In this document: one piece after another, positions 5,049-47,046 of the stretch
Numbering within the stretch: the stretch's first letter is position 1
Layout of the letters: the number at the start of each line of letters is the position of its first letter
NCBI GenBank assembly: GCA_018263585.1
Contig: JAANWZ010000088.1
Coordinates: 1-47,107 of the forward strand
DNA length: 47,107 nt
Direction: 5' to 3'
From: Calditrichota bacterium
Lineage (GTDB): Bacteria > Electryoneota > Electryoneia > Electryoneales > Electryoneaceae
Notes under the pieces: model-generated
What the model saw: only the letters and a program-made list of their open reading frames with translations
Told to the model about the DNA's origin: nothing
Database searches by the model: none
Translations under genes and position numbers: made by a program

Positions 5049-5396
5049 ACAAGCCGCCATCAGTGTGTCCTGTGCGCAGGCCAGCGGTTGCTCGCAACCG
5101 CGGCTGGCGGGCGGCCCGGGGCTTGCCCCGGGTCTCATACACCGCCCGGATCACATAACCGACCGGATCACATACCGACCGGATCACATACGCTTGCCCT
5201 TGACTTTAGTCAAGGATAATCAAACAGTTGGGCGGCACCGGGGATAATCAAACAGTTGGGCGGCACCGGGGACGCTTGCTGGCAAGCGTCCCCGGAGTGC
5301 GCCGCACTTGCAAGCAAGTGCGGGCACGAGCCAACTCAAGCCCCAACCCTCAAGCCCCAGGCCTCAAGCCCCAAGCCTCAAGCCTCAGGACTGACA
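5049..5396. repeat. Intergenic repeat cluster upstream of accA (P2, P4, P1, P3 and tandem units)
   Basis: This 348-base gap has no gene but is packed with repeats. From left to right it holds a reversed, slightly degenerate P2 hairpin (5084-5105), a P4 hairpin (5114-5132), three direct copies of CCGGATCACATA (5146, 5163, 5179), P1 (5198-5215), a 28-base direct tandem beginning GGATAATCAAACAG (5214-5241 and 5242-5269), P3 (5268-5293), and a second hairpin GCACTTGC/GCAAGTGC (near 5299-5318). It ends in a CAAGCCTCAAGCCC-like microrepeat (about 5337-5390) running up to the accA start. Confidence 0.9.
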
Positions 5397-13924: not shown

Positions 13925-14148
13925 GCCCTCGGTCGCCTGCAACGGCGTGATCGCGTGTACCGGCCGTGCGGGCTTGTCCGCGCGGGTGATAACACCGGTG
14001 CATGAACCCTGCGACATCGCACACAGACGCGCTGTCACAGGGGCACAAAAGAGTACCGGCCGTGCGGGCTTGCCCGCGCGGGTGATCCAGGGGTAATGAA
14101 CGCAGCCGCCTCGAAACCGCGGTTGCGAGCAACCGCGGGCCTGTGGGA
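13925..14148. repeat. P5 composite and P2 repeat cluster after mfd
   Basis: A second copy of the P5-spacer-P5 block seen at the left edge occupies 13957-14093, including the CCCTGCGACATCGC and CTGTCACAGGGGCAC spacer. A perfect P2 palindrome follows at 14117-14138 with its GCCTGT tail, directly abutting the M1 element at 14149. No gene is seen. Confidence 0.88.
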
Positions 14149-22784: not shown

Positions 22785-22997
22785 CCGTGCCGGTCCCGTC
22801 TCCCGCAACCCCGGGGAAACCTGGGCCGTACTCGCGGATGCCGGTCTCCGGGCTCGCGCATCGTCCTCCCGCGGCGCCTTCCCGAGCCGGCGACCGGCGC
22901 ATGCCGATCCTCCGCGCCCGGTGGCGTGTTGCCGCGTTTGTCCGCGCTTACCGTGGCGGGGGCCGCTCCCGATTCTCACGGGATTCCCTTCGCATCC
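22785..22997 (-). promoter_or_regulatory. Cobalamin riboswitch
   Basis: The minus-strand leader of the TonB receptor gene carries the conserved blocks of the AdoCbl-type riboswitch in order: GGGAATCCCGTGAGAATC at the 5' end, GAGCGGCCCCCGCCAC (family consensus AGCGGxCCCGCCAC), and then GAGCCCGGAGACCGGC (consensus GAGCCxGGAGACCxGC) near 22838-22856. A TTGACA at 23013-23018 could be the -35 of its promoter, but I see no convincing -10. The downstream limit of the aptamer is approximate. In this family, cobalamin binding switches the downstream gene off. Confidence 0.92.
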
Positions 22998-23079
22998 ACG
23001 AGGGTGATCGCTTGTCAACGGCGGAGCGTGGACCGCCCGCCGGGAAAGGCAAGATACACGGTCGGATCGTCCGCGGCAA

Positions 23080-23460
23080 GCGTTGAGGCGGACGGCTGGC
23101 CCGGGCTTCAGCCTCGGGTCTCATACACGGTCGGATCACACACCCTTGCCCTTGACTTTAGTCAAGGATAATCAAAGGGTTGGTCAGCCAGTCGGGTGGC
23201 CCGGGGCTTCAGCCTCGGGTCTCAGGTCACGCACACCGTCGGATGAACCGCGGTTGCAAGCAACCGCGGGCCTGTCAAGAACGGGGACGCTTGCTCGCAA
23301 GCGTCCCCCTCCACTCACGTGATCTATGCCCCGCGCCTGCTTGCAGGCCGGGTTCTTGTCACGGTGGAATCACCGCCGGATCAGCCGCGCGGCCGAGCCC
23401 GCACGGGCGACACAGATGATGGGTGGCCCGGGGCTTGCCCCGGATTTCACCGGCGGTGGC
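23080..23460. repeat. Dense cluster of P4, P1, P2, P3, P6 and P5 hairpins
   Basis: About 380 bases with no gene, made almost entirely of repeats. In order: P4-type (23098-23120, CCCGGGCTTCAGCCTCGGG with the TCTCATACACGG tail), P1 (23150-23167), P4-type again (23199-23222), P2 (23248-23269), P3 (23283-23308), P6-type CCTGCTTGCAGG (about 23336-23347), a degenerate P5 (about 23388-23412), and P4 (23423-23445). Tails such as GGTCGGATCA recur between hairpins. Confidence 0.9.
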
Positions 23461-29080: not shown

Positions 29081-29500
29081 CTCAATCTGCAGAACGTAGC
29101 CCGGGGTCGCCGACCCCGGGGCGGTAGCCGCGCGGCCGAGGCCGCACGGGCGACACTGATGTGGTCAGCGGACAGGGACGCTTGCTCGCAAGCGTCCCCG
29201 GAGTCAGGGCTGGGTGGCTCGGGGCTTGCCCCGGGTTTCGTACCGCGGTGACACCCTGCGGGCCGTCCCCGCGGGCATGTGTGCGTAAGCCGCTCAGCGC
29301 ACGAACATCCACTTCCACCCCCGCTCGCGTTCACCCTGCACTGTCGCGCGCACGAAACAGACCCCGCTCGCGCGATGGGAGCCGCGGTTGCGAGCAACCG
29401 CGGGCCTGTACTGTGCCGCTGCGACTCAGCAGCGGTTGCGAGCGACTGCGGGTCGGTCACTTCGTCCCTTCCGGGCTGTTGCGTCGCTATCTTACCGTCG
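29081..29500. repeat. Repeat cluster upstream of cmk (P4, P5, P3, P4, P2)
   Basis: No gene in this 420-base gap. It contains a P4 variant with a longer loop (CCCGGGGTCGCCGACCCCGGG, written as CCCGGGG/CCCCGGG around TCGCCGA, about 29101-29121), a degenerate P5 (about 29131-29150), a P3 with one base lost from the left arm (29174-29199), P4 (about 29217-29237), a perfect P2 (29392-29413) and a degenerate P2 (about 29431-29455). Confidence 0.85.
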
Positions 29501-45218: not shown

Positions 45219-45432
45219 GGGAGGGGGATGTCGCCGTGGCCCCGCGGCTCCGCCTGCGGGGGAGGAACCTGCTCGTGCCCGCGCTTGCTCTTCAAGCGCG
45301 GCACGTGTGGCCCGGGGTTCGCCCCGGCATGCACACCTTGCCTTTGACTTTAGTCAAGGATAATCATACAGTTGGATAGTCGTCACGCACCCTCGGATCA
45401 GCCGCGGTTGCAAGCAACCGCGGGCCTGTAGA
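45219..45432. repeat. P4, P1 and P2 repeats after the cyanophycinase-like gene
   Basis: A P4-type hairpin (GGGG/CCCC around TTCG, about 45311-45326), P1 with one mismatch in the left arm (45342-45359), and a perfect P2 (45402-45423) with the GCCTGT tail that runs directly into M1 copy 3. Nothing recognisable lies between 45219 and 45290 apart from a CGCGCTTGCTCTTCAAGCGCG hairpin, arms GCGCTTG/CAAGCGC, near 45280. Confidence 0.85.
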
Positions 45433-45590
45433 GTGTCATCCTGAACAAGCGCGGCGTCTGTTTGCCGCGCGCCGTGAAGGATCTACGCGGTACAGTACGC
45501 GGAGGTCATTTGACCCGCACCTTGGGCGGTTCTTGCAGGCAGATCCTTCACCCCCGCACACACTGACGTGCGGAGGGTTCAGGATGACAC
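45433..45590. mobile_element. M1 inverted-repeat element, copy 3 (158 bp)
   Basis: Ends GTGTCATCCTGAAC and TTCAGGATGACAC. The left inner hairpin GCGCGGC/GCCGCGC and GAAGGATCTACGCGGTAC match copy 1 closely. The centre differs, and the right inner hairpin is CCCCGCA/TGCGGAGG, slightly imperfect. As with copy 1, it lies directly after a P2 hairpin. No coding capacity. Confidence 0.85.
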
Positions 45591-46970: not shown

Positions 46971-47046
46971 TGAGACCCGAGGCTGAAGCCCCGGGCCACC
47001 CAGCCGTGGATGAGACCCGAGGCTGAAGCCCCGGGCCACCCAGCCG
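46971..47046 (-). repeat. Tandem 40-bp duplication of a reversed P4 unit
   Basis: TGAGACCCGAGGCTGAAGCC with its continuation CCGGGCCACCCAGCCG occurs at 46971-47006 and again at 47011-47046, separated by TGGA. Each contains the P4 hairpin in reverse orientation with the TGAGACC tail seen at 5131 and 23119. The two copies are identical over 36 bases, so the duplication is recent. Confidence 0.9.

Follow-up and report, generated by a model that had tools for sequence, protein, structure and literature searches.

The window, by which we mean the whole stretch of 47,107 nucleotides analysed here, is one contig (C153) of a MAG assembly that comprises 2.85 Mb in 165 contigs, is 92% complete and has a G+C content of 67%. 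At best, the housekeeping protein Mfd of this genome is 76% identical to its counterparts in two MAGs; for named phyla, Sumerlaeota and Planctomycetota among them, identity is about 40%, so the host lineage is uncultured. The gap at 23080-23460 contains eight hairpins that can be read directly from the sequence (Table 1), the first of which is near-identical to the P4b copy (repeat D3). A cobalamin riboswitch (Rfam RF00174, 70.3 bits; 22822-23012, minus strand) adjoins this hairpin-rich gap.

Across the window, 49 copies from 11 families were placed, and at least 11 families occur in its intergenic gaps; none of the 49 copies lies within the six Pfam-supported genes that were checked. The sequence-only reading that drew attention to this locus had listed hairpin families P2 to P6 and named the gaps, this one among them, that they fill. 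Both descriptions hold, except that the copy at 23385-23406 differs from P5 in the middle of the stem and is therefore entered as P5-like, and that the supposed fixed tail GCCTGT is in fact the reverse complement of the 5' tag of P2. At 5214-5269 and 5335-5390, we observed short tandem duplications, namely two directly adjoining copies of a 28-nt unit and a repeated 14-nt unit (CTCAAGCCCCA..).

Table 1 Hairpin copies and their positions in the window
Family	Sequence, tag	Position	Strand	Remark
P4b-like	CCCGGGCTTCAGCCTCGGG, tag CTGG at 23096-23099	23100-23118	+	read directly
P8	GCCCTTGACT-TT-AGTCAAGGATAA	23148-23171	+	different core; 31 copies in 330 kb
P4b	GTGGCCCGGGGCTTCAGCCTCGGG, tag GTGG	23196-23219	+	16 copies in 330 kb
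P2	CCGCGGTTGC-TT-GCAACCGCGG, tag ACAGGC	23248-23269	-	tag is reverse complement of GCCTGT, 23270-23275
P3	GGGGACGCTTGC-TC-GCAAGCGTCCCC, tagless	23283-23308	.	127 copies genome-wide
P6	GCCCCGCGCCTGC-TT-GCAGGCCGGG, tag ATGC	23328-23352	+	
P5-like	CCGTGCGGGCTCGGCCGCGCGG	23385-23406	-	
P4	GTGGCCCGGGGC-TT-GCCCCGGA, tag GTGG	23423-23444	+	175 genome copies, ≤2 mismatches
P2		5082-5103	+	
P4		5111-5132	+	
P8		5196-5219	+	
P3		5268-5293	.	
PX	GTGC-CCGCACTTGC-TT-GCAAGTGCGG, tag GTGC	5302-5327	-	
P2		7319-7340	-	
P5		13964-13985	+	one mismatch
P5	CCGTGCGGGC-TT-GCCCGCGCGG	14060-14081	+	183 exact copies genome-wide
P2		14117-14138	-	
P3		15406-15431	.	
P9	GTAGCCCGGGGTCGCCGACCCCGGG, tag GTAG	29096-29120	+	
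P3		29174-29199	.	
P4		29214-29235	+	
P2		29382-29403	-	
P7	CCCGCGCTTG-CTCTT-CAAGCGCGG, tag GTGC	45278-45301	+	
P2		45402-45423	-	
P6		45639-45663	-	
P2		45684-45705	-	
P3		46853-46878	.	
P6		46929-46953	-	
P4b		46976-46999	-	first of 40-nt tandem pair
P4b		47016-47039	-	second of 40-nt tandem pair

Hairpin numbers exceed chance expectation

A genome with 67% G+C might be expected to produce hairpins by chance. Counting stems of at least 9 bp, the window contains 32 hairpins; 20 order-2 Markov simulations averaged 9.2 and never exceeded 17. In about 330 kb of the genome, window included, we counted 185 hairpins against 62-65 expected; as these stretches were partly picked for hairpin matches or Y1 genes, the densities are not genome averages. 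The six commonest hairpin centres in the 330 kb all have the form X-GC-NA-GC-X on one strand. Genome-wide copy numbers, obtained as exact or near-exact pattern matches, point the same way: the core TTGCNNGCAA has 441 sites compared with 39 for the reversed pattern, CCGNGNNNGCRAGCNNNCNCGG, in which the inner letters of both arms are free, has 430 matches compared with one, and P3 (127) and P4 (175, allowing two mismatches) have none in reverse. Subtracting the P5 count from the 430 CCGNGNNNGCRAGCNNNCNCGG matches leaves approximately 240 for P2. With more than 100 copies each, P2, P3, P4 and P5 display the high copy number characteristic of REPs. The comparison with shuffled sequence suggested by the sequence-only reading thus yields an excess of about three-fold over order-2 simulations and of 11- to 430-fold over reversed patterns, and an origin of the hairpins by chance can be dismissed.

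Paired stems surround a common core

Several families vary in mid-stem, where the two arms co-vary around the constant core GC-T(T/C)-GC. Pairing was tested by free-arm pattern searches. Of the 100 listed CCGNGNNNGCRAGCNNNCNCGG matches in this genome, nearly all are paired, and almost all belong to two types, P5 (CCGCGCGGGC-RA-GCCCGCACGG) and P2 (CCGCGGTTGC-RA-GCAACCRCGG), which differ in three inner pairs, each altered in both arms. A third type in the same frame, CCGCGCTTGC-AA-GCAAGCACGG, lies beside the second of the two RAYT genes described below (C81). Among relatives, the pattern GTGGCCCGNNNNGCTYGCNNNNCGGG was matched 108 times, in six genomes, and never in reverse; the 29 distinct stems are 78% Watson-Crick paired, whereas reshuffled arms average 39% and reach 54% at most. 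Eleven of these 29 stems are fully paired, and one relative, G012, alone has nine fully paired stems. The arms therefore change together, as had been proposed from the letters of the window. Most tagged copies have TT or TC as the loop of the tag strand. The shared core, which the sequence-only reading had given for most hairpins, is indeed frequent, but P8, P9 and the TTCA form P4b lack GC-TY-GC and have other cores.

Tags and arrangement of the copies

The GTRG tag of REPs is found as GTGG before P4 and P4b and as GTAG before P9. P2, the hairpin at C81, P6, P7 and PX do not carry a strict GTRG but (C)AGGC, ATGC or GTGC, and P5 is preceded by GTACCG or similar, so that most families have a variant tag, RTGC or AGGC. 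Judging by their position beside RAYT genes, the P2 and C81 hairpins may nevertheless work like REPs. For P3, the copies in the sampled stretches revealed neither a tag nor a flank consensus. We considered whether P3 might be a CGTC-tagged REP, a superfamily that PMC3733652 describes as having an unpaired CGTC, TGTC or CCTC tag, stems of 8-9 bp, a loop of 4-5 nt and a CCA tail, and set this aside, P3 having a 12-bp stem and a 2-nt loop without an unpaired tag. Neighbours of the same family are arranged head-to-tail in 27 of 29 cases and inverted in two; a description as REPIN or BIME, in which an inverted pair of one REP forms the unit, was accordingly rejected.

Lying between genes and having strong stems, the hairpins could also be transcription terminators or RNA processing signals under selection at gene ends. 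We regard this as very improbable, since the flank consensus contains no T run 3' of the hairpins of the kind that marks Rho-independent terminators, one gap holds several types side by side, the stem sequences are specific to the lineage, and the hairpins are associated with RAYT genes.

Two RAYT genes lie between their own hairpins

This genome contains Y1 genes of which three were found by PF01797 and a fourth by homology. Two of them, on contigs C160 and C81, are RAYTs and share 46% identity. The C160 RAYT scores 81.4 bits with NF047646 (cut-off 80), and Pfam Y1_Tnp stays just under its own cut-off. The C81 RAYT was found by homology and again by profile; a profile search of the genome returned no further RAYTs. 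Both reading frames are intact. In an alignment of 33 RAYTs from this genome and relatives (A1), HxH has an invariant second His and a nearly invariant first one, and the Tyr does not vary; the HUH motif (HVH) and the catalytic Tyr of the Y1 domain are thus conserved.

Each gene is framed by its own REPs in inverted orientation. Upstream of the C160 RAYT we found three copies of CAGGC-CCGCGGTTGC-TT-GCAACCGCGG, which is the P2 of the window, and downstream two to three P2 copies in the opposite orientation. The C81 RAYT is flanked by CCGTGCTTGC-TT-GCAAGCGCGG, with at least three copies upstream and five downstream, the latter in tandem at a spacing of 49 nt; in our sample this hairpin scarcely occurs outside its RAYT locus. 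Flanking copies of this kind are typical of REPs, and the C160 gene is just what the sequence-only reading had suggested looking for, a Y1 (HUH) transposase between hairpins of the window.

No RAYT flanked by P3 or by P5 to P9 was found, and this assembly has none for P3, P4, P5, P6, P7, P8 or P9, absences whose weight is limited by the incompleteness of the MAG. Of the 50 listed P3 places, 11 are no more than 300 nt away from a contig start (for example C1:22, C4:55 and C46:6 of G000), compared with about 0.9 expected for 165 contigs in 2.85 Mb. The assembly therefore breaks at these repeats, and loss of RAYT genes through such breaks is likely. More generally, RAYT genes may be under-counted wherever MAG assemblies are broken at hairpin repeats.

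The two other Y1 genes, IS200-type by NCBIfam, have unrelated flanking hairpins and were set aside. One (L001, 1486-1932) has several copies of GTGCGGCT-TC-AGCCGCAC on both sides (flanks 1300-2120); the other (L002, 1408-1854, minus strand) is adjoined by a hairpin array (1900-2239) that is made up of TCATCCCCTTCGGGGATGA and CCACGTTTACACGTGG and reaches the contig end. Separately, the window has an inverted repeat, GTGTCATCCTGAAC / GTTCAGGATGACAC, at 45433-45590 with 130 nt between its arms, whose left end recurs near the C160 RAYT (L003, 2118-2240). It is possibly a further small mobile element.

RAYT loci in relatives

We scanned 35 RAYT loci from this genome and its relatives, comparing the alignment score of each flanking pair with 100 shuffles. 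Most loci have an inverted flanking pair that scores far above the shuffle maximum; four (L009, L011, L017 and L050) lie slightly above it, and three (L005, L037 and L020) lie below it and have no clear pair. The common form of the flank is a tag RTGG or RTGC, a C-rich foot, a variable mid-stem and a loop usually starting with GCTY. A P4 hairpin is found on one side of the L020 RAYT (relative G004). In three RAYT-bearing relatives, 20-kb stretches show a small hairpin excess at most, so the dense pattern belongs to this genome and is not phylum-wide.

The sequence-only reading had suggested that one enzyme might move many families. This part was not upheld: the C160 and C81 RAYTs each lie between their own stem type, and G012 presents the same picture, three of its four commonest pattern-found stem types each flanking their own RAYT (L038 with GGTT, 10 copies; L039 with GACA/TGGA, 8 copies; L043 with GCGA, 15 copies). 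Because each RAYT is flanked by its own stem type even in this multi-RAYT genome, the comparison favours one RAYT per stem type as the probable arrangement. The alternative, in which one RAYT moves several families in trans by reading tag, foot and loop while stems drift as long as they stay paired, draws on several observations. The P5, P2 and C81 hairpins have a common foot and core and differ in three inner pairs only; P5, with its 183 copies, is without a RAYT of its own; and G012 has 17 stem variants for four strong RAYTs. Moreover, one tandem array of relative G006, with a common spacer and the tag ATGC, has two P5 stems in alternation with a degenerate C81-like stem. We nevertheless consider movement in trans unlikely, since every RAYT gene is flanked by a single stem type, the three frequent types of G012 each have their own enzyme, the C81 hairpin hardly leaves its own locus in the sample, and assembly breaks can account for missing RAYTs. 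P5 and C81 hairpins also agree in the position of a C.A mismatch; together with the common foot and core and the alternation in G006, this indicates that P5 probably belongs to the C81 line as a sub-type. A search of the 5-kb stretch around the two P5 copies of G006 revealed no RAYT.

Discussion

The hairpins of the window are best explained as REP elements, most of them spread now or formerly by RAYTs, that is, single-strand Y1/HUH transposases; for this explanation as a whole we estimate a probability of about 0.87. RAYTs flanked by the same hairpins in the same genome bear out both the REP-like nature and the link to RAYT-type Y1/HUH enzymes that had been anticipated. The copy number, the compensatory stems, the common core, the RAYT genes with HUH and Tyr, and the RAYT-specific flanking hairpins are observed in this genome, the flanking hairpins also in relatives. 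Weighing against the explanation are the presence of only two RAYTs for at least 11 families, the non-GTRG tags, the head-to-tail neighbours and the other cores of P8, P9 and P4b. P3, which has neither tag nor RAYT, falls outside the direct evidence.

From these features we infer how recognition, mobilisation and the order of events may have run in this lineage. A RAYT encoded between copies of its own hairpin, placed as an inverted pair or as arrays, would recognise, on one strand and partly by shape, the 5' tag (GTGG or GTAG, here often RTGC or AGGC), the C-rich foot and the loop core GCTYGC, and would copy or move this hairpin into intergenic DNA. Hairpins beside the gene would mutate, pairing being kept by compensation, and with duplication of the RAYT a novel stem type could arise together with a RAYT of its own, while older stem types would persist as relics. 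The anatomy assumed here, a fixed tag, foot and loop core with a free but paired mid-stem, fits by analogy the pairs of E. coli, Stenotrophomonas and Marinomonas, in which the RAYT binds one strand of the folded REP via the tag plus either the loop or an irregularity of the stem, with cleavage at a CT or CA site (PMC8266576).

One could go further and view all hairpins as relics of several past REP/RAYT systems, none of them mobile today. Most families are without a RAYT in the assembly, and Pseudomonas offers many comparable cases (PMC3686654). Both RAYT frames are intact, however, and P3 and P5 vary very little from copy to copy and are missing, or nearly so, from 40 relatives (for P3, none by exact match, a search that would miss diverged copies), which argues for recent spread. 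We therefore find the relic interpretation doubtful, if slightly less so than movement in trans, and retain REPs spread now or formerly by RAYTs.

A lead on tag specificity comes from the residue that follows the FW motif. All eight RAYTs with Leu or Met at this position have C in the fourth place of the tag, whereas 19 of 21 with Gln have G (Fisher p ~1e-5); in the C160 RAYT the residue is Met127. On the tree, however, Leu/Met traces back to one change, in a group with weak support (68/88), and common descent is by itself enough to explain the link. The residue corresponds to Gln95 of E. coli TnpAREP by local motif matching, in a stretch that the profile alignment omits. Plasmids provided only two distant matches, and the available genomes of the phylum were already all in the sample. 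It is conceivable, though rather improbable, that the RAYTs of this lineage shifted to tags with C as fourth base via this residue (the Gln95 guide-binding site) and also read mainly tag and loop core, spreading tagless P3 or RAYT-less P5 in trans.

Comparison with known systems

The kind of system is known, as the REP-RAYT link and the common GC-TT-GC core have been published (PMC3686654 Table 1, PMC3733652), and each RAYT has its own REP family (PMC6006769). What this genome adds is an uncultured lineage with dense, multi-family REPs, in which RAYT paralogues, each with its hairpins, lend themselves to direct comparison, and a natural data set on how RAYTs read hairpins, with tag and loop core fixed and the stem free if paired.

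The closest parallel is provided by the REPs of fluorescent Pseudomonas (orthogroups I-IV; PMC3686654 Table 1; PF8 GTGGGAGCGAGCTTGCTCGCGAT, PF14 GTGGGAGCTGGCTTGCCAGCGAT), which likewise combine a GTRG-type tag with a GC-TT-GC core. In classes PF8, PF13 and PF14 this core is surrounded by different paired stems, changed on both arms between classes, and each class lies beside its own RAYT; some abundant classes are left without a RAYT, and flanking REPs switch to new classes ('orthoswitch'). In contrast to these REPs, stems here are longer (8-12 bp), most tags are RTGC/AGGC-like, copies of one family stand head-to-tail without REPIN pairs, and many families are mixed in one gap. The GTAG-tagged superfamily (GTAG-1 to -24; PMC3733652) shares tagged palindromes of 20-40 bp, short loops that are often TY, families with alternative paired stems, clustering and RAYT association (REPtrons), but the hosts reported in the text consulted do not include this lineage, and several tags here are non-GTRG.

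E. coli REP/BIME and TnpAREP (PDB 4er8; PMC8266576) offer a related HUH/Tyr enzyme by profile search and a tag followed by an imperfect hairpin, whose bulge the stem mismatch of C81 and P5 resembles. The sequence match to TnpAREP is weak (E 3.9e-12 with profile) and, unlike in the E. coli REP, the common core here sits at the loop, a feature shared with group 3 RAYT/REP pairs, in which positions of the loop are important. REPINs (PMC3116915) are also RAYT-associated REP populations, but their defining inverted doublet is seldom seen in this genome (2 of 29 same-family neighbours). The system described here thus differs from known REPs in its RTGC/AGGC tags, its head-to-tail neighbours, the many families per gap and the tagless P3.
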